The notes below the pieces were generated by a model. That model saw only the letters and a program-made list of their open reading frames with translations. It made no database searches and was not told the origin of the DNA. A stretch of 55,242 nucleotides of DNA from an uncultured Eubacteriales bacterium (GTDB lineage Bacteria > Bacillota > Clostridia > Christensenellales > Aristaeellaceae): positions 90,935-146,176 of the forward strand of contig CACWLP010000002.1 of assembly GCA_902761755.1 (NCBI GenBank), in the 5' to 3' direction. Of this stretch, positions 17,746-41,918 are shown piece after piece (position 1 is the stretch's first letter; each line of letters begins with the position of its first letter). The position numbers and the translations under genes were made by a program.

Positions 17746-17801
17746 GCTCTGCCCGAACGGGACAAGAAAGCGACACTCAAGCATCATAGAACAGTGGCGC
17801 G
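17746..17801 (+). ncRNA. Conserved intergenic element, copy A
   Basis: A CCC-GAAC-GGG hairpin is followed by AAGCG, CAAG, then CATAGAACAGTGGCGCG. The same order and core occur at 38889 and 41820. It sits between the Gly-X gene and the next early gene. Just downstream (about 17818-17850) is a stretch resembling the 3' end of the ORF6C-like gene (GCAATATCGGACTGATCATG), a probable duplication relic. Confidence 0.55.
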
Positions 17802-17858
17802 GCCCCTCGGCGGAGGGAGCAATATCGGACTGATCATGGAAATGAGGAGGTCGCAGCC

Positions 17859-18284
17859 ATGCCCAGGGCCATGAACCACCCGCCGGAGCAGATCAGCATG
17901 GCGGATCTGTTTGCGGACGGCTGGAGCACGCCGCAGCTGCCGCCGGAAGAACAGAAAGAAGGCGCAAAGGCCTGGATTCTGGAGTGCAGGGGCATTACCA
18001 ACAGCACCCGGTGGGACGCGCCCGTCCTCTACTGGCAGGTGCGCGCCCGGCAGGTGAAATTCACCGAGGATGCGATATTCAGCCAACGGTATCAGAGATG
18101 GGAGGTTGCCGCGGACAGCTGCGACGGGTTGCCGCACATGGGATGGGCCGGATTCGTCTACAATCCGACTTTTGCGCGGAAACCGAATTTTTCTGACATG
18201 ATCAAATACGTGGAGAAAAAGAACAGCTACCAGCCTGGAACACAGATCGTTTTTTGGGAACGAGAGAGGCGCGTGGAACCATGA
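17859..18284 (+). CDS. Small phage protein, unknown
   Basis: This 141-residue cytoplasmic protein begins MPRAMNHPPEQISMADLFAD and has a beta-rich centre with several Trp (WDAPVLYWQVRARQVKFTED). Sequence and size suggest a phage early protein, but I recognise no family. GAGGAGG lies about 10 nt before the ATG. The stop overlaps the next ATG (ATGA). Confidence 0.65.
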   Translation: MPRAMNHPPEQISMADLFADGWSTPQLPPEEQKEGAKAWILECRGITNSTRWDAPVLYWQVRARQVKFTEDAIFSQRYQRWEVAADSCDGLPHMGWAGFVYNPTFARKPNFSDMIKYVEKKNSYQPGTQIVFWERERRVEP

Positions 18285-18586
18285 ATAAACAGGATTGCCC
18301 GGAAACCCGGAAAGACGTGCTGGAGCTGATCCAGGCCATCGAATACGAACGGAAGAAGAGGAAGATCCCCGCCTGCAGGATGCTGGCCCGGGCGGGGATC
18401 AGCCAGCCCACGTGGTACCACTGGCTGGCCGGGGAGTGCGTGCCCCACACGGATCTGTTCCTGCGGCTGATGCTCAGCATGGGCATGGGGCTGGTGATGA
18501 AAGGCCCCACCGGGCAGATCACCGTGATCCGGCCCCGGAAAATGGACGTGAGCACGGACAAGAACGACGGGAGGGCAGGAGAATGA
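18281..18586 (+). CDS. Small HTH phage protein
   Basis: This 101-residue protein has a Cro/C1-type HTH: VLELIQAIEYERKKRKIPAC, then the recognition segment AGISQPTWYHWLAGECVPHT. It ends with a Lys/Asp-rich tail. It probably binds DNA; the target is unknown. It is coupled to the genes on both sides by 4-nt overlaps. Confidence 0.7.
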   Translation: MNKQDCPETRKDVLELIQAIEYERKKRKIPACRMLARAGISQPTWYHWLAGECVPHTDLFLRLMLSMGMGLVMKGPTGQITVIRPRKMDVSTDKNDGRAGE

Positions 18587-18936
18587 GCGAAATAGAAAAT
18601 GCACAGATCGAAAACGTGACCATCTCCATGGCGGATCATGGGTGCATTACCTTCTTTTTGAATTTGAGCGGCAACGGATGGGGCTGCGGCTTCGGCGGTT
18701 ATTGCATCGGCCACGGATACCTGGGCGCGAAGAAATTCAGCGGCTCCGGGAAGGGCATTGAGGCCATGGCCCGCATCATGGATACGGTGGGCGTTGAACG
18801 GTGGGAAGATCTGAAAGGCAAATACTGCCGGGCGAAAATCACAGGCTGGGGCGGCACCATTGACGAGATCGGGAACCTGGTCAAGGACAAATGGTTCAAC
18901 ATTAAGGCATTCTTTGGGGAAGGAGAAGACGGATGA
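18583..18936 (+). CDS. Small phage protein, unknown (IENVTISMADHGC type)
   Basis: This 117-residue protein has a Gly-rich N-terminal half (IENVTISMADHGCITFFLNL, then GWGCGFGGYCIGHGYLGAKK) and a helical middle (GIEAMARIMDTVGVERWEDL). The pattern is familiar from Firmicutes phages, where it remains uncharacterised. It starts within the preceding gene's stop (ATGA) and overlaps the next start by 4 nt. Confidence 0.7.
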   Translation: MSEIENAQIENVTISMADHGCITFFLNLSGNGWGCGFGGYCIGHGYLGAKKFSGSGKGIEAMARIMDTVGVERWEDLKGKYCRAKITGWGGTIDEIGNLVKDKWFNIKAFFGEGEDG

Positions 18937-19409
18937 CGGATCAGTGGCCGCTTTACCTGGTGGGCGACGCGGAAACCGGCGAGGCGTACGTGGCCCGGCT
19001 GATCCCGGAGCCGGAGGGCATATACGGGCCGGAAACCAGGCCGCTGGTGCAGATCCTGCGGGTGGCGGCCTATCCGCGGCAGCACGCCATCCAGGATCCC
19101 GGCGTGGCGCTGGAAATACCGGCGATTCCCAAGGGCACGTTCACCCGGCTCAGCCTGATCGCGGAGATCAGCGTGTACGACGTGGACACGGGGTCCTATG
19201 AGATCAGCCTGCGCAGGGCGCAGCAGGAAGCGCTGGAGCTGGCGGAAACCGAGAAAGAAAGGGAAATCATCCGCCGCCACATGGCGGGCGAATACTACCG
19301 CCGGCGGCTGGTGAAGAGCTATACCCGGGAAGAAGTCAAGTTCATGGTGGATCAACACGCGGGAAAGAAGCCGGAGGCTGAAAATGGGATACATCAAGAT
19401 CTGGGATGA
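18933..19409 (+). CDS. Small phage protein, unknown
   Basis: This 158-residue protein has a beta-rich first half (WPLYLVGDAETGEAYVARLI) and a long charged helix (LRRAQQEALELAETEKEREI) leading to a basic segment (YYRRRLVKSYTREEVKFM). No family was recognised. It is coupled upstream by a 4-nt overlap and overlaps the next gene by 26 nt. Confidence 0.6.
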   Translation: MTDQWPLYLVGDAETGEAYVARLIPEPEGIYGPETRPLVQILRVAAYPRQHAIQDPGVALEIPAIPKGTFTRLSLIAEISVYDVDTGSYEISLRRAQQEALELAETEKEREIIRRHMAGEYYRRRLVKSYTREEVKFMVDQHAGKKPEAENGIHQDLG

Positions 19410-20112
19410 CCAGCTGGAGAAGCTGCGGGAGTGCACCACGGAGGAAAAGGGCCTGATCCTGGAGGCGTGCATGGCGTACCAGGCGGGGGAAGAGGTGGCA
19501 TTCCCGGAGGGCGCCGACGGGCGCTTTCTTCGGCTGCTGTGGGCGTCTTTCCGGGAAATGCTGGACGCCAACAGCCGCAAGCAGGCGGCCAACGCGCAGA
19601 ACGGGGCGAAGGGCGGCCGGCCCTGCGCCGAACCGGAGGAAAACCCGGCAGAAACCGAAGAAAAACCCAACGGAAACCCAACCGAAACCCAAGGGAAACC
19701 CACGGAAGCTAAGAAACAAGAAACAGGATACAGGAAGCAGGACGAAGGAAACGGGGCTTCACACACGGAGAAGGATCCACCCCAAGTGAAGGACGCGCGC
19801 GCGCGCGAGGGCACATACGTCGATCCGGGCGGGAAAACGCGGCCCTGCCGGTATGACTGGGCGTGGATGACGAGCCTCCGGGCCCGGGCCGCCGTGGCCC
19901 AGCGGGTGATCGAGAACATATCGCCCATGCTGGATATGCGCGGCGCCGGCGACCTGCACGGGTATCTGATGGACGCCATGCAAAGCGGCGTGCCGCCGGA
20001 GTGGATCGAGGACGCGGCGGCGGGCATGAGCCGATGTACGCAGCTGCTGGCCGCGCTGAGCATGCGTTCGACTGCGCGTCTGCGCGAAAGCGCATCCGCG
20101 CTTCGCTGCTAA
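19384..20112 (+). CDS. DUF6291-like phage protein, possible replication organiser
   Basis: This 242-residue protein begins MGYIKIWDDQLEKLRECTTE, with LILEACMAYQAGEEVAFPEG and AANAQNGAKGGRP. This is the layout of phage proteins annotated DUF6291 or replisome organiser, in which an N-terminal winged-helix-like domain is followed by a low-complexity linker. Here the linker (about 80-130, Glu/Asn/Pro/Thr) leads to a C-terminal helical part (PEWIEDAAAGMSRCTQLLAA). The last 15 residues (RSTARLRESASALRC) are encoded by a GC-rich stretch that looks like a repeat fragment and may have replaced the original end. Confidence 0.65.
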   Translation: MGYIKIWDDQLEKLRECTTEEKGLILEACMAYQAGEEVAFPEGADGRFLRLLWASFREMLDANSRKQAANAQNGAKGGRPCAEPEENPAETEEKPNGNPTETQGKPTEAKKQETGYRKQDEGNGASHTEKDPPQVKDARAREGTYVDPGGKTRPCRYDWAWMTSLRARAAVAQRVIENISPMLDMRGAGDLHGYLMDAMQSGVPPEWIEDAAAGMSRCTQLLAALSMRSTARLRESASALRC

Positions 20113-20184
20113 ACTTCCTGGCCGTATAGCTCTTACGCGTCCCGTTCGGGCCGCGACGAGCCGGGGCAACACGAGCGGAGGGAA

Positions 20185-20622
20185 ATGAAGGTGCTGATCC
20201 CAAAACGTATTTTTTCACAGGTGGAGGGCGTTCTGCGCGTCCGGGACAGGCTGGAGCCGGAGGCGAAAATGGCGCTGTACAAGGCCCGAAGGGCGGCGGA
20301 CGGGGCCGCGGCCCGGCGGATCGGCAAGCAGCAGGCGCAGCGGATGGTGCGCCGGTGCGAAAAGCGCCTGGAGGCGGCCAGGCAATGGCAGGCGGTATTT
20401 GCGCTATTAGACCGCACGTTTCCCGCGGGGAGCGAGGAGGGGAAGGTGGCGGCGCTGCTCTACGGGGAAAAGCGCACCCAGGAGGAGATCTGCGCCCTGT
20501 TCCAATGCACCCGGCAGACGGTGCGCCGCCGGCGGGACAATTACGTCTGCCACTGCGCGCTGTTCGCCGCGGCGGCGGGGCTGATTCAGATCAGGGAGGA
20601 CGAGCATGACGCCGACAGATGA
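20185..20622 (+). CDS. ArpU-like late transcription regulator
   Basis: This 145-residue protein has a helical, basic N-terminal half and a sigma-region-4-like HTH: EEGKVAALLYGEKRTQEEIC, then ALFQCTRQTVRRRRDNYV. This matches the ArpU/RinA type of activator at the end of early regions in Firmicutes phages, which switches on late genes. GGAGGG lies a few nt before the ATG. The next gene starts 17 nt inside its 3' end. Confidence 0.7.
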   Translation: MKVLIPKRIFSQVEGVLRVRDRLEPEAKMALYKARRAADGAAARRIGKQQAQRMVRRCEKRLEAARQWQAVFALLDRTFPAGSEEGKVAALLYGEKRTQEEICALFQCTRQTVRRRRDNYVCHCALFAAAAGLIQIREDEHDADR

Positions 20623-20950
20623 ATTGATCCGGGCGCTGCGCGCGTGGGCGGCGGCGTTCCGGGTTAAAGACGGGATGGGTCAGCTGACAGAAGACCTGGC
20701 CGCGGCCGCTGACCGTCTGGAAGAGCTGGACGAAAGGATCGCGATCATCGGGGAGCCCGGGGCCGTGCTGATCAGCAGGAAGCTGACCGCCCAGGAGCGG
20801 GAAGCGGTCTGGGAGGCGTTCAGGTCCAATTCGCCCATCTATGCCAGCATCGAGCGCATGGGCGACCAATTCAGTATCCAGAGCCTGGGGCCGCTGCGCG
20901 TCACGGAGGACGCGGAGAAGCGGTTCTGCGGGCTGATAGAGGAGGAATAA
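20606..20950 (+). CDS. Small phage protein, unknown
   Basis: This 114-residue protein is mainly helical (ELIRALRAWAAAFRVKDGMG, then LAAAADRLEELDERIAIIG), with an acidic end. The RLEELDERIA part resembles generic phage early coiled-coil proteins. AGGGAGGA precedes the ATG, which overlaps the ArpU-like gene. The next gene starts 3 nt after its stop. Confidence 0.6.
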   Translation: MTPTDELIRALRAWAAAFRVKDGMGQLTEDLAAAADRLEELDERIAIIGEPGAVLISRKLTAQEREAVWEAFRSNSPIYASIERMGDQFSIQSLGPLRVTEDAEKRFCGLIEEE

Positions 20951-20953
20951 GCC

Positions 20954-21283
20954 ATGGCAAAAATCAGGGACTGGCTGATCCGCGCCCTGGGCGGACACAC
21001 AGAAGCGGAATGGCAGCGGGATATCGCCAGCATGCGGGGGAGCCGTACGCCCGTGAAACTGGGGCTGACCAGGCGACTGCCGGTGGGCGTGACGGCCGAG
21101 GAGTTCCTCGTACAACCGGTGGACGGCGCGGACCCGCTGATGCGGGAAAACATGGCATATCGGCTGGGACGGATGCTGCTGGATCTCGGCATGATTGATT
21201 ATCGCACGGAAGCTGGGCGCGGCGATGAGCTGAATGTGCTCCGGGCCTCGGTGTTCGTCTATCCGCCGGAGGCAGAAACGTGA
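20954..21283 (+). CDS. Small phage protein, unknown
   Basis: This 109-residue protein begins MAKIRDWLIRALGGHTEAEW and ends in a beta-rich part (VLRASVFVYPPEAET). No domain was recognised. GAGGAATAAGCC upstream provides the SD. It is in tandem with short early genes of similar size. Confidence 0.6.
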   Translation: MAKIRDWLIRALGGHTEAEWQRDIASMRGSRTPVKLGLTRRLPVGVTAEEFLVQPVDGADPLMRENMAYRLGRMLLDLGMIDYRTEAGRGDELNVLRASVFVYPPEAET

Positions 21284-21380
21284 GGCGGTGCCCATGCTAC
21301 GGCAAACGGCAAGCACATATCGACACGATCACGGCGAGGATGATTACGATAGGGCAGATGCGGCAAGGGAGGGGAAGGTA

Positions 21381-21821
21381 ATGGATAGTCGGGGAAAAGT
21401 GATAGAACATCTCAAGGAAATAGCGGAGTATTTCCGGGGGTGCAGGAACAACGCATCGTTTGCCAGCAAAGCAGAGAACCATTTCTGGGAATTGCAGAAC
21501 GCTGCGAGTGAAGCGGCTGAACTGTTGAAAGCGCAGGAACCCAGGGTGATGACGCGGGCGGAAGTTGAGGCATGGTCCGGCGCCCACCATTACGATGATT
21601 TACTGTGGGTAGACGCGCCGAAAGATGCAGCAGGTTATAACTGCGGTGATGCTCATATCGGTTGGAGCCTGATCATGAGCTCAATAGGTGGGGTCATCGA
21701 GCAAAAACGGCCGCAGGATGAATACCTTGAACTGCCAATCGAAAAATACGGAATCACCTGGCGCTGCTGGACTTCCCGCCCAACGGACGAGCAGAGGAGG
21801 GCGACACCATGGGCGGAATAG
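21381..21821 (+). CDS. Small phage protein ending in the PTDEQR tail
   Basis: This 146-residue protein starts MDSRGKVIEHLKEIAEYFRG, a helical segment frequent in phage early proteins. Its second half is a small beta-rich domain (WRCWTSRPTDEQRRATPWAE at the end). The last 13 residues match the end of the protein at 21914 in pattern (PTDEQRxAxxWxE). The ATG at 21381 has AGGGGAAGG just upstream; another ATG at 21294 would add a poorly coding-like leader. Confidence 0.6.
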   Translation: MDSRGKVIEHLKEIAEYFRGCRNNASFASKAENHFWELQNAASEAAELLKAQEPRVMTRAEVEAWSGAHHYDDLLWVDAPKDAAGYNCGDAHIGWSLIMSSIGGVIEQKRPQDEYLELPIEKYGITWRCWTSRPTDEQRRATPWAE

Positions 21822-21907
21822 AAGCGGCTGGATGGGTGATTTTTCTTGCCATAGGATTACCAATACTGCTTGCTTATTTATCTGATTGGTGGAACGGAAG
21901 GCGGTGA
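21809..21907 (+). CDS. 32-residue single-span membrane peptide
   Basis: A short frame, MGGIEAAGWVIFLAIGLPIL then LAYLSDWWNGRR, has one hydrophobic helix and an Arg-rich end. AGGAGG lies 9 nt before the ATG, and that SD is embedded in the coding end of the preceding gene. Size, SD and topology support a real small phage membrane protein of unknown role. Confidence 0.65.
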   Translation: MGGIEAAGWVIFLAIGLPILLAYLSDWWNGRR

Positions 21908-21913
21908 AGTGGG

Positions 21914-22156
21914 ATGACTAAATTCGGAAGATGGAAAAAGGTTCACGGTTATATATCGCCCGGTGGAACTCCAGCGTTTGTCTGTGGAAACTGTGGCGGG
22001 TCTGAACACCTACATGGGGTAGAATACCCTCGAAGGAAAATAATTTGTGACAACTGCGGGCAGATCAATATTTACCCATGGGAAAAAGCGTATGAAGAAG
22101 GCTCATCCTTGTGGCCCACGGACGAACAGAGGAAGGCGGTGAAGTGGAATGAATAA
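21914..22156 (+). CDS. Small zinc-ribbon phage protein
   Basis: This 80-residue protein has two CxxC pairs (CGNCGG and CDNCGQ, about 24 and 45), forming a probable zinc ribbon. It ends with the WPTDEQRKAVKWNE tail shared with the 21381 gene. An SD (GGCGGTGAAGTGGG) precedes the ATG. The stop overlaps the next start by 8 nt. Confidence 0.7.
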   Translation: MTKFGRWKKVHGYISPGGTPAFVCGNCGGSEHLHGVEYPRRKIICDNCGQINIYPWEKAYEEGSSLWPTDEQRKAVKWNE

Positions 22157-22367
22157 GCCAAACTGGCCGCTAAAAGACGAAGTAGAACATTTTCGGTGGA
22201 CAAATGATCATACACAATACCATTCCTTTGGATTCGGTTTTTGTAAAGCACAAGATAGTTGTGAACAGTGTGATTACAAAATACGAATGTTATGCAAAAT
22301 AACAACCAAGATCCACAAAGTGCGAGATAAAATCATAAAAAAACATTATGGGGTAAAGACGTGGTGA
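22149..22367 (+). CDS. Small Cys-rich phage protein
   Basis: This 72-residue protein has four Cys (FCKAQDSCEQCDYKIRMLC) in a zinc-finger-like spacing and a basic C-terminus (KIHKVRDKIIKKHYG). It is AT-rich compared with its neighbours, suggesting recent acquisition. The 227 nt after it (22368-22594) contain two AAATTTCCA palindromes and no gene. Confidence 0.6.
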   Translation: MNKPNWPLKDEVEHFRWTNDHTQYHSFGFGFCKAQDSCEQCDYKIRMLCKITTKIHKVRDKIIKKHYGVKTW

Positions 22368-22421
22368 AAAGTATCACTGGAACCTGAAAGGGCTGCGCCT
22401 GGACAGGCGGTAGAAACGCGG

Positions 22422-22446
22422 CAAATTTCCATCAGGTGGAAATTTG
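22422..22446. repeat. AAATTTCCA palindrome, copy 2
   Basis: CAAATTTCCATC, A, GGTGGAAATTTG: 12-nt arms with one G-T pair. It belongs to the same family as 14019, 22503 and 30950. Confidence 0.8.
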
Positions 22447-22502
22447 GTGTTTTCTTCCGGCGGGATGAACGTCCGCGGGGCGAGATGATGTATCATTCAC
22501 GG

Positions 22503-22527
22503 CAAATTTCCATCAGGTGGAAATTTC
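22503..22527. repeat. AAATTTCCA palindrome, copy 3
   Basis: CAAATTTCCATC, A, GGTGGAAATTTC, nearly identical to copy 2, which is 81 bp upstream. It lies about 70 nt before the second recombinase gene. Confidence 0.8.
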
Positions 22528-22594
22528 TATCCTATTTAATTCACGCGCGCGAGGAAGCGCCTGCGAATGTTCCAGAATAATAGAAAGGGAACGT

Positions 22595-23206
22595 ATGAGC
22601 ACACAGCTGCAGCCGATCAGAGACCTGGCGACGGTGCACGATATCACCGTAACCCTGAGCAAGATGGAGACCCCGCGCGGCCGGCGCATGTTTCTTGAAT
22701 GGATCGTGGGCATTAACCTGGGGCTGCGGGTCAGCGACCTGGTGGATCTGAAGGTGGGGGACATGCGGGCCAGGGAATTTACTTACCTGCCCAAGAAGCA
22801 GGCACACAAGCGCGGGGCGAAGAAGATCACCATCCCGATCCCGCTGCAGGTGCGCCGGGCGGTGGCCGCACGGTGCGAGGGAATGGCGGACGGGGATTGG
22901 CTGTTCCCCAGCAGGAAGCGCACGCCCGGCGGGAATGCAAGCCACATCACCCGCCAGGCTGCCAGGCGGGACATGGTGGAGATCGGGAGGATCTGCCATT
23001 TGGATCAGCGCATCGGCTGCCACACCATGCGGAAGACTTTCGGCTATCATTACTACCAGCGCACCCACGATATCGCCATCCTGCAGGAGTGGTTCTACCA
23101 CAGCAGCCCGGCCACCACGCTGATCTACATCGGCGTAACATTGGACAATTTCAAGAAAATGATTGACAAATCCCCGTTTGACAACATGGACGGCGTGCGG
23201 CTGTGA
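22595..23206 (+). CDS. Second tyrosine recombinase (short)
   Basis: This 203-residue protein is a catalytic domain of the phage-integrase fold without the N-terminal arm-binding domain. The active-site pieces are visible: NLGLRVSDLVDLK (Arg), LPKKQAHKRG (Lys), CHTMRKTFG (His-x-x-Arg) and LIYIG (nucleophile Tyr). The usual GH ahead of the Tyr is replaced by YHSSPATT. It lies before the HNH and terminase genes, far from attL, so it is not the main integrase. A role in DNA rearrangement or dimer resolution is plausible. AAAGGGAACGT precedes the ATG at 22595. Confidence 0.8.
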   Translation: MSTQLQPIRDLATVHDITVTLSKMETPRGRRMFLEWIVGINLGLRVSDLVDLKVGDMRAREFTYLPKKQAHKRGAKKITIPIPLQVRRAVAARCEGMADGDWLFPSRKRTPGGNASHITRQAARRDMVEIGRICHLDQRIGCHTMRKTFGYHYYQRTHDIAILQEWFYHSSPATTLIYIGVTLDNFKKMIDKSPFDNMDGVRL

Positions 23207-23274
23207 GAAAAAAGTGAACACAAATTTTGACGCGCCGAAAACCTTTGCCGCGTAAGCGTTCGCGGCGGATCGGA

Positions 23275-23319
23275 CGCCCCGGGCATAGATGAACATTGAG
23301 CCATCGCCCGGGGCGTTTT
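23275..23319 (+). terminator. Rho-independent terminator after the recombinase
   Basis: A 10-bp stem (CGCCCCGGGC with GCCCGGGGCG), a 21-nt loop and TTTTG. It separates the early region from the packaging genes. Confidence 0.75.
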
Positions 23320-23419
23320 GTGATATGGTGCCGCCAAGAGCAGCGGCCGGGGATTTTTCATCCTTTTTCCCACCGGCAGGGCGTGCATGGCGGCGCGGGA
23401 CGCCGCGGGGAGGCGGGCG

Positions 23420-23737
23420 GTGCACGAACAATTCGCGAATGCGTTCTACTCCAGCGGCGCGTGGAAACGGTGCCGCCGGGACTATGCCGACAGCGTGGGC
23501 AATATGTGCGAGCGGTGCCGGAAAAAAGGATTGATCGTGGTGGGTACCAGGGCGCGTCCGCTGGAAGTCCACCACAGGATCCCGCTGACGCTCGAAAACA
23601 TCGGCAATCCCGCCGTGACGCTGAATTGGAACAACCTGGAGCTTTTGTGCAAGGATTGCCACGAGGAGGAACGGCAGCGGCGGCAGCAGCGATGGCGCGT
23701 GGACGCGGACGGGAAAGTCACCGCCCGCGGGACGTGA
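23420..23737 (+). CDS. HNH endonuclease
   Basis: This 105-residue HNH nuclease has FYSSGAWKRCR, two CxxC knuckles (CERC and CKDC), the HNH core VHHRIPLTLENIG (His-His) and NWNNLELLC (Asn). Genes of this type sit next to terminases in HK97-like phages and are needed for DNA packaging in several of them. I prefer GTG at 23420 (GGGGAGG 6 nt upstream; gives (M)HEQFANAFYSSGAW, the typical family start) over the ATG at 23387. The 204 nt after it (to 23941) are GC-rich and hold no gene; they may contain the cos or pac site, which I cannot locate. Confidence 0.9.
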   Translation: MHEQFANAFYSSGAWKRCRRDYADSVGNMCERCRKKGLIVVGTRARPLEVHHRIPLTLENIGNPAVTLNWNNLELLCKDCHEEERQRRQQRWRVDADGKVTARGT

Positions 23738-23941
23738 ACGCGGTGGCAGGGGCTCCCGGTCGATTGACGGGCAAGGAGGCGGGGCCAGTCCGGGAGTGCT
23801 GGTCAAACAATAGCTCCACAGTGCGCACATAGGCCCCCGCGAACGCCCGCGCCCGCGGATCCGCGCCCCGCCCCCGCGCGCGGCCTGTTTTCCCCCTCCC
23901 TCCACGGACCTTTCCCGACTTGCCCGAAAGGCGGCCAACTT

Positions 23942-24286
23942 ATGCCAAAGATCACGGAAAAAAAGGAAATCGAGCGCCTGACGGCCCAGTATACCGGCCT
24001 GACGCCCCGCCGGATGGCGCTGGCGCAGGGGCTGATCGCCCAGGCTGCGCGGCTGCGCGTCCGGCTGGACGAACTAAACGCCGACATTCAGAAGAACGGC
24101 CTCACCGAGCTCTTCCAGCAATCGGACAAGGTAGACCCCTACGTGCGGGAGCGGCCGGAGGCGGCGCTGTTCGTCAAGATCGACAAGAACTATCAGGCCA
24201 TCATGCGCCAGCTGACGGACATGCTGCCCGAGAGCGATCCGGACCGGCCGGCCGACGACCTGGACGAATGGAAGGCCAATGGATAA
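23942..24286 (+). CDS. Terminase small subunit (P27 type)
   Basis: This 114-residue helical protein (MPKITEKKEIERLTAQYTGL, ending DDLDEWKANG) has the size and place of a P27-like TerS. It recognises the packaging site and delivers DNA to TerL. AAAGGCGG precedes the ATG. The stop overlaps the TerL start by 8 nt. Confidence 0.8.
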   Translation: MPKITEKKEIERLTAQYTGLTPRRMALAQGLIAQAARLRVRLDELNADIQKNGLTELFQQSDKVDPYVRERPEAALFVKIDKNYQAIMRQLTDMLPESDPDRPADDLDEWKANG

Positions 24287-25934: not shown

Positions 25935-26015
25935 GCCGATGAGCCGGGAGGACACGCCGCAGGCGTCCGCACCGGCGAAACCGCGCGCCGCGGATGCGAG
26001 GGCGCGGGCGAGAGA

Positions 26016-26048
26016 GAGATCGGCGAGCAGCTGCGGAATGCCGGATAA
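26016..26048 (+). pseudogene. Relic of a second terL 3' end
   Basis: These 33 nt encode EIGEQLRNAG and a stop, the same peptide as the true TerL end at 25902-25934. They differ only at third codon positions and in the stop (TAA for TGA). The 81 nt between the copies have no convincing gene. This looks like a recombination scar where the terL end was replaced by a related version. Confidence 0.7.
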
Positions 26049-26064
26049 AAGGAGGAATGGGGCC

Positions 26065-27246
26065 GTGGGCCTGTTTGAGAAACTGTTTGGCCGTTTCCGG
26101 GCCGGTCAGGGGATCAGCGCTTTCTGGCAGACGCTGACAGGGTATTCCCCGGCGTTCACCAGCTGGGACGGCCAGATGTATGAAAGCGATCTGGTGCGAT
26201 CCTGCATCGACGCCCTGGCCAGGCATTCGGCCAAACTGGAGCCCACGGTGCAGGGCGCCGCGCTGCCGCATCTGCGGTCCAAGCTCCGCAGCGAGCCTAA
26301 CCCGTTCATGACCTGGTATCAGTTTTTATACCGCACCCGCACCATCCTGGAAGCGCAGAATAACTGCTTCATCATGCCCCTGTACGACGACGCGGGAAAA
26401 GAGCTGGAAGGCTATTTCCCGGTGCTGCCCTCCCGGTGCGAGCTGATCGACGGGGATGAGGACATGCCCTTCCTGCGCTACACGTTTTTGAACGGGCAAC
26501 AGGGTGCCATGCCCCTGGACCTGTGCGGCCTGCTCACCCGCCACCAGTACCAGGACGATATTTTCGGCAGCGAAAACACCGCCCTGGAGGTGCCTTTGGA
26601 TCTGATCGGCATGCAGGCCCAGGGCATCAAGGAAGGGATCAAAAACAGCGCCACCTTCCGCTTCATGGCCCGGGTGACCAATTTCACCAAACCCGAAGAC
26701 CTGGCCAAGGAACGCAAGCGCTTTAACCGTGACAACCTGCAGGGCGAATCCGGCGGCATGCTGCTCTTCCCGAACACCTATTCCGACATTCGCCAGATCG
26801 ACCAGAAGCCCTATACCGTGGACGCGGAGCAGCAAAAGCAGATCGAGACCCGGGTGTTCAACTATTTCGGCGTCAACGAGGAATTTTTGCAGAATAAGGT
26901 CTACGGCGACGCCTGGAGCGCCGTTTACGAGGGCGCCATCGAGACCTTCGCCGTCCAGCTGTCCGAGGTGCTCACCGCCATGACCTTTACCGACCGGGAG
27001 CGCAGTCAGAAAAACAAAATCATGTTCACCAGCAACCGGCTGCAATACATGACCAACCAGGAAAAGCTCCTGGTCACCGCCCAGCTGCTGGACCGCGGCG
27101 TCTTCAACCGGGACGACGCCCGGGCCGTGTGGAACCTGCCGCCGCTGCCCAACGGGGAAGGCCAGGCTTACTACATCCGGGGCGAATACAAGGACGCCCT
27201 GGACACGCAGAACCAGAAGGGGGAGAACACCAGCTATGCCTTATAA
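26065..27246 (+). CDS. Phage portal protein
   Basis: This 393-residue HK97-type portal begins MGLFEKLFGRFRAGQGISAF and has SLxRxCIDALARHSAKLEPT-like and NPFMTWYQFLYRTRT segments typical of the family. The C-terminal part carries EEFLQNKVYGDAW and FTSNRLQYMTNQEKLLVTAQ. It forms the dodecameric ring through which DNA enters. I prefer GTG at 26065 (AGGAGG about 9 nt upstream). An ATG at 25939 is in frame but lacks a good SD and would translate the terL relic region in another frame. Confidence 0.92.
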   Translation: MGLFEKLFGRFRAGQGISAFWQTLTGYSPAFTSWDGQMYESDLVRSCIDALARHSAKLEPTVQGAALPHLRSKLRSEPNPFMTWYQFLYRTRTILEAQNNCFIMPLYDDAGKELEGYFPVLPSRCELIDGDEDMPFLRYTFLNGQQGAMPLDLCGLLTRHQYQDDIFGSENTALEVPLDLIGMQAQGIKEGIKNSATFRFMARVTNFTKPEDLAKERKRFNRDNLQGESGGMLLFPNTYSDIRQIDQKPYTVDAEQQKQIETRVFNYFGVNEEFLQNKVYGDAWSAVYEGAIETFAVQLSEVLTAMTFTDRERSQKNKIMFTSNRLQYMTNQEKLLVTAQLLDRGVFNRDDARAVWNLPPLPNGEGQAYYIRGEYKDALDTQNQKGENTSYAL

Positions 27247-30936: not shown

Positions 30937-30949
30937 CGCAATCATTCTA

Positions 30950-30972
30950 AAATTTCCACCCGATGGAAATTT
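30950..30972. repeat. AAATTTCCA palindrome, copy 4
   Basis: AAATTTCCACC, C, GATGGAAATTT: 11-nt arms with one mismatched step. It lies between the tail-completion and major tail genes, 27 nt before the next start. Confidence 0.8.
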
Positions 30973-31688: not shown

Positions 31689-31709
31689 CGGAAACGGGAG
31701 GGAAAAAGG

Positions 31710-32257: not shown

Positions 32258-32269
32258 GGAGGCGGCGGC

Positions 32270-35134: not shown

Positions 35135-35135
35135 T

Positions 35136-35900
35136 ATGGCCAGGCATCTGGAAGCGGCGCTGGGGGGCGTCACCCTTCGGACGGCCGCCCCGCTGACAGC
35201 GATCAATAACATCACCGAAACCCCGCGGGAGGATGCGTCCTGGGGCGCGCCCCTGGGGGCGGAGGGGCAGATCCTCCTTTCGGACCGCCGGGCGGGGAAC
35301 CTGATCACCCTGGAATTTGTGATCGAGGAGCTTTTCAACCTTGCTGCCCGCACCCAGCAGCTGGATCTGGCCAACGGCTGGGCAAAGCCGGGTTACTTCA
35401 CCCGCAGCGACCGCCCGGGAAAGCGCATCCGGGTGATCCCCGCGGAATACGCCCATATCGCTTCCGCACGGGATTTTACGGAGGTGTTCCGCCTGGGGCT
35501 GGAAGCGTCACCCTGCCCGTACTGGGAGGACGCAACGCCCACGGAACTGGCCCTGACGGGCAGCAACACCACGGGATTGATCACCGTGCCCGGCACGGCG
35601 GAAACCGTGGCGGACGTGACCGTCAGCCACACGTCCGGAACGCTGAACACCCTTACGCTTGCCCTGGGGGATACGCAGATGAGCTTTTCCGGGCTGAATA
35701 TCCCCGCCAACACGAACCTTACGCTGGATCATGACGAAAACGGAAACCTCCGGATCCGGGCGGGCAACGTAAGCAAATACGGCTGCCGCAGCGCCGGCAG
35801 CGACGACGAATTGTCCGCGCTGCCCGGGGCCCGGGCGGTGACCGTGACCGCAAACGTCACCTGCAACGTCACGCTGCAGGCGAGGGGGAGGTGGAAATAA
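35136..35900 (+). CDS. Distal tail protein (Dit-like)
   Basis: This 254-residue protein has an N-terminal beta domain (NNITETPREDASWGAPLGAE, then RAGNLITLEFVIEELFNLAA) and a C-terminal beta domain (LEASPCPYWEDATPTELALT), as in siphophage Dit hubs linking tube to baseplate. It starts 1 nt after the tape measure stop. The last base of its stop is the first base of the next ATG. Confidence 0.8.
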   Translation: MARHLEAALGGVTLRTAAPLTAINNITETPREDASWGAPLGAEGQILLSDRRAGNLITLEFVIEELFNLAARTQQLDLANGWAKPGYFTRSDRPGKRIRVIPAEYAHIASARDFTEVFRLGLEASPCPYWEDATPTELALTGSNTTGLITVPGTAETVADVTVSHTSGTLNTLTLALGDTQMSFSGLNIPANTNLTLDHDENGNLRIRAGNVSKYGCRSAGSDDELSALPGARAVTVTANVTCNVTLQARGRWK

Positions 35901-38890
35901 TGGCAGACCGCGTGCGCGCGCCGTGCCTGCTGGACGCAAGCTTCCGCGAATCGGCGCGCCTGCGCCCCACGGCATTGAGCCTTGACCTGGAAACGGAGGA
36001 CGCGTCCACCGCCCAGCTCACCATGCCGCCCCAGGCCGATGCGCTGCCCATGAACGCCTGGATCGAGCTGTTTACCTTAAAGGGCAGCGCCGGGTATTAC
36101 CGCGTCAGCCGGGACACGGAGGCGATGAAAAAGAACCGCAGCTACGTCCTGCGCCACGGCATCGACACCCTGCACGACAGCCTCTGGAAAGAGCAGCGGG
36201 ATTTTTCCGGCACCATGCAGGAATACCTGACCGCTCTGCTATCGCAGCAGACCGCCGTCTACTGGCAGCTGGGCGTCTGCGAAGACACGGGTGCCTGGAA
36301 GAAAAAGGGCATCAATTACGATCACCTGGATGATCTGCTCAACGAGGTGCGCGCCGAGCGGCAGGGGTACCTTTTCACCTACGACTTTACCACCACGCCC
36401 TGGACGCTTTCTTTCGTGGCCGCGCCGGGCACGGTGAACGCGGAAATGCGCCTGCGCCGCAATTTGGAAGGCGGCCAGATCATCCATTCCCGGGACGGCC
36501 TGGTCAACCGGCTGTACCTGAGCGTGCACACCACCAAACAGGCGGACACAGCGCCGGCCACCTGGTCCGGCGGTGAAAACAAGGGCCAGGCCACCGGCAA
36601 CACCACCGCCGCGGAGGATAAAACCACCGAAACGGAAACCGTGCTACGCGTCTATAACGACGCGGCCAGCCAGGCGCTCTACGGCGTGGTGGAAGGCCCG
36701 GCAGACATCGACACCGAGGACGTGCCGGACGTGGACGCCTGGGCGGCGGCCTTCCTGCAGGACCACGCGTCGCCCATTGGCCAGGCGTCCGCCGACGCGT
36801 GGGAGATCGTCAAATCCACCGGCGAGGAATGGGACAGCCTGGACCTGGGAAAGCTGGCCCGCATCGCGGGCCGCGGCATTGAAAAGCGCATCGTGCGGCT
36901 GCAGTATCCCGATCTGGTGAGCAGCCCCGCCCAGGCCCACGCGGATCTGAACCGCCCCCTGCCCAAGTTTTCCGAAACGCTGGCGGACCTGCGCAAGAAA
37001 ACGGACAGCGCGGCCGCCGCGGCCGGTCGCGCCTCCCGGGGCGCCGCCGTGGATAAGCAGCTGACCCACTGGGCCCAGGTGGTCCAGGAAATGAAGGAAG
37101 CCCTGGACGGCACGGGCCTGACCGACATGTGGGAAACCGGCATCGAGCTGGACGCCCAGACCGGCGCCAGGCTTTACAGCTTTTACCAGGGCCAGATCAG
37201 CGAGCGCGCCGAGCTCATCGTCAATCATGAGGCCATCCAGACGCTGGTCACCAAAACCGGCGTCAATGATTTGGGCCAGGGCGAAACGCTCTACAGCAAA
37301 ACCACCCAAACGGCGGAGGGCCTTTCGGCGGAAATCAGACGGGCCACCGACGCGGAAGGCACGCTGACCGCCAATTTGTCCGCCACCGCGGCAGAACTGC
37401 AAACCCTGTACGCCAAGACCGGCGTTAATAGCCTGGGGCAGAATGAAACGCTTTACAGCAAGCTGACCCAGACCGCCACGAACTTTAACACCCAGGTAAC
37501 GGCGCTGAGCGCGAAGGTGGACACCAAAGCCACCGTCTACCGCCAGTGGACGGACCCGGCCAGCGTCAGCGGCAACACCGTGCAGCCTGGGGATGTGTGG
37601 ATCAAGACCAACGCCATCCGCACCCTGGGCGACGCGGGCAGCCTGACGTTGAACGACATGAGCGCCTACCAGATCCGCGACATGTACGGCAGCCGCCTGT
37701 ATGTGCGCAACGGCAGCGGCGCCTGGGAATTGCAAAACGACGAGGCCTCCTCCGTGGAGCACGGCACCCAGATCGACGAAAACAACGATCAGATCAGCCT
37801 CCTTGCCTGGGACATCCAGCAGAACCAATCGGACGTGGGGGAGCTGACCGTGACGGCTAAAGAGATCACCGCCCGGGTGCAGCACGTGGAGGCCGATTAC
37901 GTTTCCACAGCCACCTTCTCCGTCCAGGCCGGGAAGATCAGCCAGATCGTCACCGCCGTAGGCAGCGACGGCCAGGTGACCGCGGCCAGCATCGCGCTGG
38001 CCATCAACCAAAGCGGCAGCGGCGCCTACATCAAGGCGGATCACGTTTACATCGCCGGCACCACCACCCTGTCCGGGCGGTTCTCCATTTCCGGCGGGGC
38101 GCTGGTGGTCAATAGCGATCTGTCCGCCACGGGGGCCATCTCCGGCGGCACCGTCTACGCCACCACTCAGCTGTCCATTGGCACGGGCACATCCGGCGGC
38201 AGCGGCAGCCTCTACTACCGCGGCAGCCAATACTACCGCCAGGGCGTCACCCTGGGCGGGTCCGGCGGGTCCATCGCCGAGGGCCATTTCCTGGGCAACA
38301 GCTCCACCACATTGAACCTGGATCATTACCACAAGATCGTGGCCACGGAGGGCACCGGGGCAAACGCGGGAAAGATCATCATCACATTGTCCGAGCCCGT
38401 CGCCACCAGCGACAGCACAAACAACACCACAAATTTTAATATCGCCGCCACGACTGCGTATCAGAACGGTGTCCTGGCGGCGAAAAACGGCGTCAAGGTC
38501 TCCGGCCCCACGTGGACCACCGCCCCGGCCTCCGGCATTACCGGCAACAGCAACACCGCCACCTTCACCACCGACGCGCCCACGCCGAACAGCGCCGCGC
38601 CCAAATCCCTGGCGCTGTACATGTCCGGCGGAAGCTGGAGCAGCGGCACCTATTATGTGTACACCACGCACACAAACAGCACCGCGGCCAACCGGATCGC
38701 GCGGTTCGCGGTCAGCAGCAACGTGCCCACCGTCAGCGCCAACGTAAGCAGCCTGGGCACGAACCGGACCGGCTATAACGACAGCGCGGGGTCCATCAGC
38801 AAAAGCGGCCTGACCGCGAATACGTATCTGGGCTTCACCATCACCTGCAACGGCCTGACCCACAAGTATTACATCGTGGTCAATGCTTAG
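35900..38890 (+). CDS. Tail-associated protein (Tal) with fibre-like C-terminus
   Basis: This 996-residue protein has an N-terminal baseplate hub (about 1-400) of the gp27/Tal kind (LSLDLETEDASTAQLTMPPQ, then YYRVSRDTEAMKKNRSYVLR). A coiled-coil region follows (430-560). It contains two similar units, KTGVN-(D/S)-LGQ-(G/N)-ETLYSK, about 66 residues apart. A beta-rich, Ser/Thr/Gly-rich C-terminus (650-996) is typical of fibres. The internal repeat suggests a trimeric shaft. GGAGG lies 8 nt before the ATG at 35900. Confidence 0.85.
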   Translation: MADRVRAPCLLDASFRESARLRPTALSLDLETEDASTAQLTMPPQADALPMNAWIELFTLKGSAGYYRVSRDTEAMKKNRSYVLRHGIDTLHDSLWKEQRDFSGTMQEYLTALLSQQTAVYWQLGVCEDTGAWKKKGINYDHLDDLLNEVRAERQGYLFTYDFTTTPWTLSFVAAPGTVNAEMRLRRNLEGGQIIHSRDGLVNRLYLSVHTTKQADTAPATWSGGENKGQATGNTTAAEDKTTETETVLRVYNDAASQALYGVVEGPADIDTEDVPDVDAWAAAFLQDHASPIGQASADAWEIVKSTGEEWDSLDLGKLARIAGRGIEKRIVRLQYPDLVSSPAQAHADLNRPLPKFSETLADLRKKTDSAAAAAGRASRGAAVDKQLTHWAQVVQEMKEALDGTGLTDMWETGIELDAQTGARLYSFYQGQISERAELIVNHEAIQTLVTKTGVNDLGQGETLYSKTTQTAEGLSAEIRRATDAEGTLTANLSATAAELQTLYAKTGVNSLGQNETLYSKLTQTATNFNTQVTALSAKVDTKATVYRQWTDPASVSGNTVQPGDVWIKTNAIRTLGDAGSLTLNDMSAYQIRDMYGSRLYVRNGSGAWELQNDEASSVEHGTQIDENNDQISLLAWDIQQNQSDVGELTVTAKEITARVQHVEADYVSTATFSVQAGKISQIVTAVGSDGQVTAASIALAINQSGSGAYIKADHVYIAGTTTLSGRFSISGGALVVNSDLSATGAISGGTVYATTQLSIGTGTSGGSGSLYYRGSQYYRQGVTLGGSGGSIAEGHFLGNSSTTLNLDHYHKIVATEGTGANAGKIIITLSEPVATSDSTNNTTNFNIAATTAYQNGVLAAKNGVKVSGPTWTTAPASGITGNSNTATFTTDAPTPNSAAPKSLALYMSGGSWSSGTYYVYTTHTNSTAANRIARFAVSSNVPTVSANVSSLGTNRTGYNDSAGSISKSGLTANTYLGFTITCNGLTHKYYIVVNA

Positions 38891-38956
38891 CGCCCGGCCC
38901 GAACGGGACGGGAAAGCGGCCGCCAAGCCACATAGAACAGTGGCGCGCGGACAAAC
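38889..38956 (+). ncRNA. Conserved intergenic element, copy B
   Basis: Starts within the Tal stop codon. A CCCG-g-CCC-GAAC-GGG-a-CGGG hairpin is followed by AAAGCGGCCGCCAAG, CCACATAGAACAGTGG and GCGCGCGGACAAACA. It ends 20 nt before the next ATG. Its parts match copies A (17746) and C (41820) in order. Confidence 0.6.
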
Positions 38957-38975
38957 AAAAAAGGAGGAAATCACA

Positions 38976-39320
38976 ATGAAACACGAGACCGTCATCAAAG
39001 CCATGCATGCCCTGAACCGCCTGGCGGGCAAGGATCTGCCCGTCAAAAGCGCCTGCGCCGTCCACCGGCTGCGGGTGCTTTTGCGCCCGGTTTGGGAATT
39101 CCACCAGGAGGAGGAAACCAAGCTGATGCGCCGGCTGATGCGGGACGGCGCGTTCATCGACGACGCCGCCCGGGAGGAATGGAACAAGCGGATCGAGGAA
39201 ATGAGCCAACTGGAAGCCGAGGGCCTGGAGATCACGCCCATCGCCCTGCCGCTTCCCGAGGACGTGACCATCACCGCCAACGACGTGGACGCCCTGGAGG
39301 GGTTCGTGAATTTCGAGTAA
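38976..39320 (+). CDS. Small late phage protein, unknown
   Basis: This 114-residue cytoplasmic or virion protein (MKHETVIKAMHALNRLAGKD, then RVLLRPVWEFHQEEETKLMR) is all-helical in the first two thirds. It resembles small phage proteins found between tail fibre and lysis genes; I cannot name a domain. AAGGAGG lies 9 nt before the ATG. Confidence 0.65.
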   Translation: MKHETVIKAMHALNRLAGKDLPVKSACAVHRLRVLLRPVWEFHQEEETKLMRRLMRDGAFIDDAAREEWNKRIEEMSQLEAEGLEITPIALPLPEDVTITANDVDALEGFVNFE

Positions 39321-39335
39321 GGGGAGGAATCATAA

Positions 39336-39752
39336 GTGCGAGAACTGATTATTGGCCAGATCGCCCTTGGCGGGTTTGACCTCGCCGGCATGATCGACCG
39401 GATCAACTATTACCACGTGGCCGGGCAGCTCACCGACGCGGAACGGGAAGAGCTGATCGCCCGGGCCAGGGAAAAGGCCGTGGAGGAAATGGAGATCGAC
39501 CCGAAAACGGAGATCCTGGCCCTGTGGGCGGCGGTGCGCGAACTGCAAAAGAAGGTAAGCGCCGGCGGCGGCGATACGCCCGTCCCAGCGGACGAATGGC
39601 CCGCCTTCGTGCAGCCGACGGGCGCGCACGACGCCTACAACACCGGTGACAAAATGACCTATACCGACGGGAAGCATTACGTTTCCCGCATCGACAACAA
39701 CGTGTGGACGCCCGAAGCGTATCCGCAGGGATGGGAGGAGCGGCAATCATGA
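39336..39752 (+). CDS. Baseplate/fibre protein with a CBM5/12-like carbohydrate-binding end
   Basis: This 138-residue protein has a helical N-terminus (LTDAEREELIARAREKAVEE) and a C-terminal domain AYNTGDKMTYTDGKHYVSRI then WTPEAYPQGWEE. This is the chitin/carbohydrate-binding module pattern (Y-N-x-G-D ... W-x-P-x-x-Y-P-x-G-W). It may bind cell-surface glycans. GTG at 39336 is the start, with GGGGAGG upstream. Confidence 0.75.
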   Translation: MRELIIGQIALGGFDLAGMIDRINYYHVAGQLTDAEREELIARAREKAVEEMEIDPKTEILALWAAVRELQKKVSAGGGDTPVPADEWPAFVQPTGAHDAYNTGDKMTYTDGKHYVSRIDNNVWTPEAYPQGWEERQS

Positions 39753-39799
39753 AGAAATCCAATACCAAAAAATACATGCGGGGGGTGGGCCCGGCATAA
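39749..39799 (+). CDS. Possible 16-residue basic peptide
   Basis: ATGA overlaps the preceding stop. MKKSNTKKYMRGVGPA is encoded, with GGGAGGAG about 8 nt upstream. A stop at 39797 ends it in the middle of a foldable GC-rich stretch (39787-39865) that resembles the intergenic elements. It may be a truncated XkdX-like gene. Evidence is limited to SD and coupling. Confidence 0.35.
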   Translation: MKKSNTKKYMRGVGPA

Positions 39800-39880
39800 A
39801 CTGAGCCCGGCTCACGGCGCCAATCAAACATTGGGGCCGGCCCCCGCAAGGGATGCTGTTAAAAAACGGGGGTGGCAGTG

Positions 39881-40309
39881 ATGGCCACCGCCAACCTAAG
39901 CCTGGACAAGCTGGCCAGCACGAACACGTTTCCCGAACTGATCACGGCCTTCAACGGAAACGCTGATAAACTGGATGCGTTTGCTGGAGCTTCCGCCGTA
40001 AACTTTACGGAAGAATCGGGGATTACCAATAACCTGTTTATTCGGAAGTCCGGGAAAGTGGTCTGCGTGAATGGGTACATCAAAAGCTCGTCCCCGCTTT
40101 CGATAGCCAGCCTATTTGTCGGTACGATAGCATCTGGTTATCGCCCAACGGAAAATGTGCGCTTTCCTGTTGCGATAGCATCTCAGCCGTATAATGTCGG
40201 CATTATTGGATATGGCATCATTGGAACTGACGGGAAACTGAACATCAAAGCAGGGAGCGATACATCAGCGACCTTTTGCTATTTTTCCTGTTCGTACATT
40301 ACACGCTAA
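39881..40309 (+). CDS. Receptor-binding/fibre tip protein, variant 1
   Basis: This 142-residue protein has an N-terminal module ATANLSLDKLASTNTFPELI then FNGNADKLDAF that is nearly the same as in the next gene (TTNLNLAKLASTDTFPTLLS). A different C-terminal beta domain of about 100 residues follows (KSGKVVCVNGYIKSSSPLSI). The C-terminal coding part is AT-richer than the start, so it was probably acquired by recombination. GGGGGTGG precedes the ATG at 39881. Confidence 0.65.
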   Translation: MATANLSLDKLASTNTFPELITAFNGNADKLDAFAGASAVNFTEESGITNNLFIRKSGKVVCVNGYIKSSSPLSIASLFVGTIASGYRPTENVRFPVAIASQPYNVGIIGYGIIGTDGKLNIKAGSDTSATFCYFSCSYITR

Positions 40310-40355
40310 ACAGCATCCCCTTTCGCGGGCTGAGCCCCCACGAAAGGAGAAAACC

Positions 40356-40811
40356 ATGGAAAATACCACCAACCTCAATCTGGCCAAGCTGGCCAGCACG
40401 GACACGTTCCCCACGCTGCTTTCGGATTTCAACGGCAATATGGACAAGATCGACGCGGCGTATGAGATTATTGGAACACGCTCATCCAGCGGCGCGCTGA
40501 CAGTCGCCAGTGTGCCGGCGTCCACCTGGACGAACGTCTGCACCCTTACGCTGGGAGCGGGCATCTACGTGGTCACCGCAGACGCCGAATACGGTTCCGC
40601 CACGGACGGCATCCGCATTCTGCTGCTGGACACCACGGAGACCACGCAATATTACTCGGCCAACAGCGTACTGGGGGCCGGGCGGGCCATCCTGTCCAAA
40701 ACCCGGATCTTTGTGTTGCCCGTGCAAACCACGCTGTATCTGCGGGTGTATCACACCTCGGCGAGCACGTTCAATATCCGCGGCGTCATCACCGCCGTTC
40801 GTATTGCGTAA
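40356..40811 (+). CDS. Receptor-binding/fibre tip protein, variant 2
   Basis: This 151-residue protein has the same N-terminal attachment module as variant 1 and an unrelated, C1q-like beta domain (SGALTVASVPASTWTNVCTL, ending TFNIRGVITAVRIA). Two tips with a shared base suggest host-range diversification. AAAGGAG lies about 7 nt before the ATG. Confidence 0.7.
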   Translation: MENTTNLNLAKLASTDTFPTLLSDFNGNMDKIDAAYEIIGTRSSSGALTVASVPASTWTNVCTLTLGAGIYVVTADAEYGSATDGIRILLLDTTETTQYYSANSVLGAGRAILSKTRIFVLPVQTTLYLRVYHTSASTFNIRGVITAVRIA

Positions 40812-40867
40812 GCTGACAAACCGAACAATCATAACATTGAGTTCAAACGGCATAAGGAGGCGCGCGC

Positions 40868-41788
40868 ATGGTCAAGGCCGCTGATTTGATCCGGCTCTTG
40901 TGGCTGGCGCTTACCGACTTCTGGGGCTACATCTGGGGCAAGCACGGGGTGCTGTGGACCCAGGAAATGCAAAACCGCGCCACCGACGCCATGGCCAAGG
41001 AATACGGCCAGCAGTGGGTGGGGCATATGGTGGCGGACTGCTCCGGGCTGGGGTATGACGCATTTCAAAAGCTGGGCGGGCACATCTTCCACGGCTCCAA
41101 CACCATCTGGAAGGAGTATGTGACGGGCCGGTGCGCGCTCAAGAACGGCAAGCGCGCCGACGGCAGGCCCATGCTGCCCGGCGACCCGGTGTTCATGAAG
41201 CGCACCAAGGGCGGCGTGGTCAAGCGCCACCACATCGGCTATTACGTGGGCGAATACGGGGGCGTGCCCATGGTGATCGAGGCCCAGGGAACCGTCAACG
41301 GCGTGTGCACCAACGTGAAGGGCCTCTTTCCGGGCCGCAGGAACGACGGCAAGGGCAAGCCCCTGACCAAATGGCACGAAACCGCCCACTGGCTGAATGT
41401 TGAATACGAGAATGGAGTGATCTACATGAACAGACCTGTCTTGAAAAAAGGCGCAGGCTGCGGCACGGACACCGCCCACCAGGACGCCGTGCGGGAGCTG
41501 CAAACGCTGCTGAAGGCAGCGGGCTGCGACCTGGAGGCAGATGGCAAATTCGGCGCGAAAACCGAATCCGCCGTCCGGGAGTACCAATCCGCCCACGGCC
41601 TGGTACCCGACGGCGTGGTGGGCGCGGCCACGTGGGACAGCCTGATCCCGGAAACCCCCGGCCAGGACGCCCCCGTCACCGACGTGCCCGGCATCGACGC
41701 CGTTTCCGTTTCCCGGGACACCCTGGCCGGGTGGCGGCGCACCATCCAGGCCGTGGCCGGGGAGATCGATAAGGTAATGGGAGCGTGA
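40868..41788 (+). CDS. Endolysin: NlpC/P60-type peptidase plus peptidoglycan-binding domain
   Basis: This 306-residue protein has an N-terminal cysteine-peptidase domain with VADCSGLGYDAF (Cys about 59), HHIGYYVGEYGGVPM (His about 123) and a downstream acidic/polar residue. A PG_binding_1 domain follows (about 200-265: HQDAVRELQTLLKAAGCDLE, then FGAKTESAVREYQSAHGLVP). A short helical tail ends it. It degrades the cell wall at lysis. No signal peptide is evident, so it needs the holin. AGGAGG lies before the ATG. Confidence 0.92.
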   Translation: MVKAADLIRLLWLALTDFWGYIWGKHGVLWTQEMQNRATDAMAKEYGQQWVGHMVADCSGLGYDAFQKLGGHIFHGSNTIWKEYVTGRCALKNGKRADGRPMLPGDPVFMKRTKGGVVKRHHIGYYVGEYGGVPMVIEAQGTVNGVCTNVKGLFPGRRNDGKGKPLTKWHETAHWLNVEYENGVIYMNRPVLKKGAGCGTDTAHQDAVRELQTLLKAAGCDLEADGKFGAKTESAVREYQSAHGLVPDGVVGAATWDSLIPETPGQDAPVTDVPGIDAVSVSRDTLAGWRRTIQAVAGEIDKVMGA

Positions 41789-41819
41789 GCACCCACTTCT
41801 CGCCGGGGAAGCAGCTTCG

Positions 41820-41918
41820 CGCTCGGCCCGCATGGGCCGAGTAAGCAGCCGCCAAGAAACATAGAACGGAAGTGCGGGCAAGCCGCCGCAAGGGGTCGCG
41901 GTCCGCGCGGACAAACAG
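41820..41918 (+). ncRNA. Conserved intergenic element, copy C
   Basis: CTCGGCCC-GCAT-GGGCCGAG (8-bp stem, so paired changes relative to copies A and B) is followed by TAAGCAGCCGCCAAG, AAACATAGAACGG and, after an extra 40 nt, GCGCGGACAAACA. It lies between endolysin and holin, ending 18 nt before the holin start. The last 13 nt match copy B. Confidence 0.6.

Follow-up and report, generated by a model that had tools for sequence, protein, structure and literature searches.

Three related copies in a prophage

In a 55,242-nucleotide stretch of DNA from an uncultured Eubacteriales bacterium (contig CACWLP010000002.1, positions 90,935 to 146,176; hereafter the window), a short hairpin-bearing sequence recurs three times, as copies A, B and C, each in front of a gene (Table 1). 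Proteins encoded in the window match PHROG families of terminase, portal, major head, tape measure, endolysin and holin proteins, a gene set that supports, as far as sequence similarity goes, the presence of a prophage. Copy A ends 5' of the ribosome-binding site of the gene at 17859. The stop codon of the structural gene upstream of copy B (38888-38890) lies inside the first bases (GCTTAG) of that copy, and the sole PHROG match of this upstream gene (35891-38890) is to a minor head protein, over residues 56-371, which does not bear out its earlier assignment as a tail fibre.

Table 1. Copies of the repeat and the genes behind them, in window coordinates; P2 pair counts were read by hand from the alignment of copies A to D
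Feature	Position	Strand	Description
Copy A	17739-17830	+	P2 hairpin, 5/8 pairs; AAGC...CTCAAG...CATAGAACAG; GTGGCGCGG; second hairpin CCCTC/GAGGG; right border approximate
Gene behind copy A	17859-18284	+	141 aa; no PHROG match
Copy B	38885-38956	+	P2 hairpin, 7/8 pairs; core; short GTGGCGCGCGGACAAAC end
Gene behind copy B	38976-39320	+	114 aa; no PHROG match
Copy C	41814-41918	+	perfect 8-bp P2 hairpin (8/8 pairs); core; long P4 hairpin starting GTGCGGGCAAGC
Holin gene behind copy C	41937-42389	+	PHROG 199 holin, E=5.2e-18

A direct-repeat search placed the three copies in a common gapless register of 63 nt (17739-17801, 38885-38947 and 41814-41876), over which copy B is 81% and copy C 70% identical to copy A. 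Local alignment scores were 66 for A-B, 36 for A-C and 58 for B-C, compared with shuffle maxima of 23, 26 and 25, and none of 1000 dinucleotide shuffles was as similar for any pair of copies. The pattern AAGC-N6-CAAG-N3-CATAGAAC, with 16 fixed bases, has three matches in the whole source assembly (2.2 Mb, 73% complete), and the reversed pattern has none. Searched with up to two mismatches, the shorter core CAAG-N3-CATAGAAC was seen three times against 2.1 expected, and 36 of 100 shuffles reached three; all three matches are exact, though their count is not above chance. The preliminary description of this DNA, made from the letters alone, had correctly picked out three related copies, the GCGCGGACAAACA common to B and C, and the holin gene behind copy C. 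Its remark that no known riboswitch or ribozyme matched agrees with Rfam, in which the repeat had no match at gathering score. A fourth copy suspected at 39787-39865 fell away: 145, 706 and 294 of 1000 shuffles scored as well against A, B and C, and the site was missed also by the mismatch search with the core pattern and by scans of the window with the covariance model R1 described below.

Three copies do lie in the one prophage, as had been described, but the repeat is not confined to it. A fourth exact match to a 15-nt core occurs on a different contig of the source genome (C1:139054; copy D), flanked by a hairpin in the corresponding position and a GCGCGGACCAAC end. Two chromosomal genes, both named by eye, adjoin it: on one side the 3' end of a PolC-type DNA polymerase III gene, on the other the end of one that is RseC-like. 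As a search key the 15-nt core alone was rejected, being no better than control (36 of 396 genomes of the order matched, against about 53 in the reversed control, by hand count); its value lay in exposing copy D. Over copies A to D, hairpin P2 is paired in 84.4% of 32 cells compared with 73.5% after shuffling, a level reached by 0 of 500 shuffles, and three of its eight pairs have changed on both sides, which 23 of 500 shuffles reach; the earlier remark that the hairpin holds changed but paired bases is borne out. Folded singly, copy A is not exceptional (z 0.49), and copies B and C are modestly so (z -2.4 and -2.1).

A covarying repeat family across the genus

A longer form of the pattern matched four of 29 genomes of the host genus, with a control of 0: four times in the source genome, seven times in genome G412 and once each in G420 and G418, the G418 match (L111) being discarded by eye as chance. 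A scan of genome contigs returned nine stretches, five in the rumen metagenome-assembled genome (MAG) RUG10975, which are the contig places of G412, and one in MAG SRR873601_bin.84; the remaining three (L119, L121 and L124) were put down to chance by eye. With up to two mismatches, a motif of the second hairpin, P4, matched 19 times in G412, six times in G418, twice in G420 and three times in the source genome, against 0 in the control of all four, and two of the three source-genome matches look unrelated.

We built model R1 from 20 aligned copies of G412, G418 and G420, with none from the source genome. At E <= 0.001, R1 found units in 26 of the 29 genus genomes, including 23 of the 26 outside model building, and at least 38 units in the richest genome (G396); 150 candidates were scored per genome, so that per-genome counts are lower bounds. 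In a draw of 300 genomes of the family, under stricter filters (E <= 1e-4), units were found in 25 of 29 genomes within the genus and in one of 271 outside it. Over 100 chosen loci R1 gave 131 matches, of which 124 are distinct; the unit is 73-96 nt long in 129 of the 131, and the other two are short pieces.

The unit, about 86-96 nt long, consists of two hairpins, P2 and P4, with a short variable linker between them that holds a TCAAG...ATAGAAC core; in part of the family this linker forms a third hairpin, P3. In the 20-copy alignment P2, P3 and P4 are 92.1% paired and 12 of 19 pairs have changed on both sides. None of 500 shuffles was as good on any of five measures, and slid partners were 16-57% paired, so that the covariation which the preliminary description had proposed to look for proved strong. 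The 124 distinct matches are 83.5% paired compared with 66.0% when shuffled, with slid-partner controls at 22-46%; this wider alignment was fitted to the model and therefore favours the structure. Within it, paired cells amount to 97.7% for P4, 87.8% for P2 and 58.4% for P3, on which figure P3 was dropped as a universal helix. Many P2 hairpins stand on a tandem G.A/A.G foot (42 and 43 of the 124 distinct rows at two positions). The tip of P4 reads GCGNAGC in 84 of the 124 (57 GAA, 20 GCA and 7 GTA), compared with 3.4% in shuffles; GCGNAGC is known as a DNA mini-hairpin of exceptional stability. In a test of which strand folds, 154 G.U wobble pairs were counted against 82 A.C, numbers that are dominated by few columns.

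R1 finds copy C in the window at E=0.0029 and copy D at E=0.045 to 0.14, and copy C goes on matching the G412 copies into GGCAAGC, seven bases past the search pattern. We also ranked 110432 window positions with gapless profiles made from the 20 outside copies. On 27 core columns, copies C, A and B ranked 1, 2 and 3, and copy C was first in all four profiles used. Some circularity attaches to such comparisons because it was the core seen in the window that led to the first outside copies. A further unit of the source genome (G000, C12:34930, L293; R1 E=2.1e-5) has a standard P2 beside a palindrome arm, and 29 identical nt of its P4 are common to it and copy D; it thus ties the prophage subfamily to the family, and copies A and B are linked to the family through C and D by direct similarity. 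One more source-genome copy, at C5:84966 (L106), is doubtful (R1 E=0.16).

Sites with and without the unit

Units stand singly or head to tail in tandems of 2-4, frequently within the loop of another palindrome that is itself dispersed, GGGGAAACCRYTCTTT...AAAGARYGGTTTCCCC, whose arms were observed around 1, 2, 3 and 4 units. Palindromes of this kind that are free of units occur in 27 of the 29 genomes, at up to 58 per genome, with a control of 0; no such arms were found around prophage copies A-C. The left flank of this palindrome reads GCTTTCTCGGAAGGGGG (for example at L342 and L348), and its left part is repeated in tandem before the adk gene of G410.

Among 111 merged places in the 100 chosen loci, called with a home-made gene finder, the right-hand gene reads towards the unit at 62 and away from it at 33; nine places were called inside a gene and seven have no right-hand gene call. 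Five of the nine inside places (L135, L206, L241, L258 and L265) are better read as sense leaders, giving 62 against 38, so that orientation to transcription is not fixed. From a reading of their translations, only L201 of the nine was kept as an in-frame case. There, on contig C31 of G410, two neighbouring primase-like open reading frames (ORFs), one CHC2-type and one D5-type by eye, together contain three 90-nt units in frame, which add about 30 residues apiece; in-frame cases are found in this one genome only.

Several sites could be compared with and without the unit. The D5-type primase carries the segment of about 30 residues, and eight of eight homologues that span the site are without it (two partial homologues, L296 and L303, end short of the site and were left out). 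In the leader of proS, the unit is present in four of 25 loci read, directly after the T-box terminator and 5' of the ribosome-binding site (loci L195, L207, L256 and L312-L336; five further partial or weak ones were left unread). P2 of the proS unit shows a G-C to A-U change between G000 and G418/G410, and an A.C mismatch in G408. By eye, proS leaders of the genus have T-box-like sequence. Upstream of adk, 25 loci from 23 genomes comprise five with palindrome and unit, six with the palindrome alone and 14 with neither, one further weak locus having been left unread. At the site of copy C, 148 nt separate endolysin and holin in the window, compared with 4 and 5 nt in two relatives whose holins are 83% and 81% identical; in a third relative, which has a 61% identical holin and lacks an endolysin match, 18 nt follow a possible stop. 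R1 found no unit in these three relatives.

Because of this presence and absence at the proS, adk, D5-like primase and holin sites, we read the three prophage copies as insertions, and consider it very likely that they belong to a mobile repeat of the host genus that is small, non-autonomous and built like the BOX element of pneumococci. They are probably passengers and not a dedicated phage RNA switch. The unit would spread as hairpin-forming DNA, moved in trans by a host or phage enzyme, and would prefer hairpin-rich non-coding sites; the GCGNAGC tip and the settling of units beside or inside hairpins hint at DNA hairpins. The prophage copies would have been acquired from the resident genus family. 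The hairpins of A, B and C would then land in the presumed mRNA leader, where they may influence translation or stability; any effect on expression would be a by-product.

Several results weigh against this interpretation. No enzyme that would mobilise the unit came to light, nor was a target duplication defined, including at the primase site in a check for features of miniature inverted-repeat transposable elements, in which the outer palindrome was also found standing alone. The compared genus genomes are incomplete (65-96%). R1 misses copies A and B, even with filters off and E up to 10, and the ranks of A, B and C in the profiles depend on the columns used, being 2, 5 and 1 on 34 columns, 6, 20 and 1 on 23, and 192, 13 and 1 on all 87. 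The endolysins of the two close holin relatives are only 29% and 36% identical to that of the window, so that loss at the site of copy C is also possible, and insertion at A and B is only inferred, because no relatives were found. All three prophage copies lie in sense, directly 5' of a ribosome-binding site, an arrangement that a cis-acting role predicts equally.

A bolder proposal, which we think doubtful, is that the unit represents a new class of non-autonomous element: single-stranded DNA hairpins that target other hairpins (palindrome loops and the DNA directly behind terminator hairpins), grow in tandem there, move without a Y1 transposase, use GCGNAGC as a recognition fold, and are carried and fed by phages of the genus.

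Other explanations and known repeats

The alternative with the next best claim, although an improbable one, is that the copies are a cis-regulatory RNA, a riboswitch-like or anti-terminator-like leader that controls three prophage genes. Their position and orientation fit this, as do the covarying hairpins and the orthologous leader copies, which occur at proS in four genomes, with the paired change in P2, at adk in five, and before RnfD-like, DnaJ-like and GH32-like genes (named by eye) in two genomes each. By contrast, units across the genus do not keep to sense orientation, 21 of the 25 proS leaders are without one, other units lie in frame inside ORFs, and Rfam is silent. The preliminary description had suggested phage RNA regulators, processing sites or hotspots for gene exchange; such functional readings are unsupported because the units are dispersed in the genus, lie in either orientation, grow in tandem, and are present or absent at orthologous sites.

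Movement by a RAYT, the Y1 tyrosine transposase that accompanies repetitive extragenic palindromic (REP) sequences, would make the units REP/REPIN-type repeats, which we judge very unlikely. The tandem G.A/A.G foot of P2 resembles REPs of Pseudomonas, and the units do form arrays. However, the transposase domain Y1_Tnp (PF01797) occurs in 10 of the 29 genus genomes and was not found in the five richest in units, G396, G421, G412, G410 and G408, which have at least 38, 27, 21, 13 and 12 units and are 71-88% complete; on this ground RAYT is unsupported as the mover. Unit ends showed no obvious GTAG or CGTC tag, although no dedicated scan for one was made.

There is still less to be said for recombination linkers or exchange hotspots belonging to the phage itself. 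Copies B and C are direct repeats about 2.9 kb apart and bracket the DNA between them, but other genus genomes hold many copies, and two family patterns gave a single viral contig (L381), in which R1 matches no more than a 26-nt piece (E=0.01) within otherwise unrelated sequence, a match judged to be chance. The viral collection may omit records near the source genome. A first pattern run against the viral contigs gave one stretch, also judged chance, and the gap pattern GCTT...CATAGAAC gave 59, none with a hairpin by eye. Homologues of the proteins behind copies A and B were not found among these contigs.

That the copies are relics of coding sequence can practically be dismissed. In its favour, copy B reads open in frame with the downstream gene (ORF 38883-39320), copy A is likewise open over the 90 nt that were translated, and units lie in frame in the two G410 ORFs. 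But instead of coding constraint on one frame without covariation we found compensatory hairpin changes and variable unit lengths, frequently not divisible by three; copy C has a stop in the frame where A and B are open, and the two scored G410 units show a negative codon score between positive flanks.

The mobile repeat to which we assign the copies can be set beside three known systems. PMC3049150 describes the BOX element of Streptococcus pneumoniae as a set of tandem boxB modules, variable in number, between boxA and boxC; the element is structured when transcribed, can encode ORFs, and in one instance is joined to a pair of T box riboswitches. The genus repeat is alike in having inverted outer arms around 0 to n tandem inner units (1-4 where arms enclose units) and an insertion in a T-box leader, a likeness of layout. 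Unlike BOX, the inner unit also occurs without arms, in the proS leader, the prophage and the primase-like genes, and the arms also occur without the unit. REP repeats with RAYT appear in PMC3733652 as dispersed hairpins that lie also inside replication genes; genus units are likewise dispersed hairpins found within replication genes, but each comprises two hairpins and about 90 nt, and the Y1 transposase occurs in only 10 of the 29 genomes. The genus repeat further resembles a third system in its in-frame insertion with empty homologues at the D5-type ORF. This third system, the Rickettsia palindromic elements, consists of small palindromic repeats, described in Rickettsia, that lie between genes and in frame inside them; in-frame cases here, by contrast, are limited to two phage-type ORFs of G410. 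By analogy, the layout seems closest to BOX, the in-frame behaviour to Rickettsia palindromic elements and the hairpin style to REPs. A limited literature check returned no paper about this repeat, judged by titles and the starts of abstracts, and none that mentions RUG10975.

Hairpins that are conserved, covary and precede phage genes invite reading as regulators; here they are apparently a mobile repeat of the lineage, a caution for RNA discovery that rests on covariation alone. The genus offers a natural series, from no palindrome through palindrome and palindrome with unit to tandem units, in which the growth of a modular repeat is traceable site by site, as well as in-frame insertions that lengthen phage-type primases.

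Four smaller observations were made alongside. A SAM riboswitch (L115, positions 20-109) and a unit stand about 1.3 kb apart in G412. Just 5' of copy A, a GGC-based repeat array with 12/18-nt spacing (16909-17325) lies inside the ORF 16672-17715 and is Gly-rich by eye. An Rfam DUF3800-XI RNA match is present on the minus strand of the window at 12164-12210 (53 bits, E=5.5e-9). A palindrome, AAATTTCCAyC..GTGGAAATTT, occurs in four copies that are 74-100% identical, at 14019-14045, 22419-22445, 22500-22526 and 30946-30972, two of which are identical and 81 nt apart; it may be an operator or a recombinase site.

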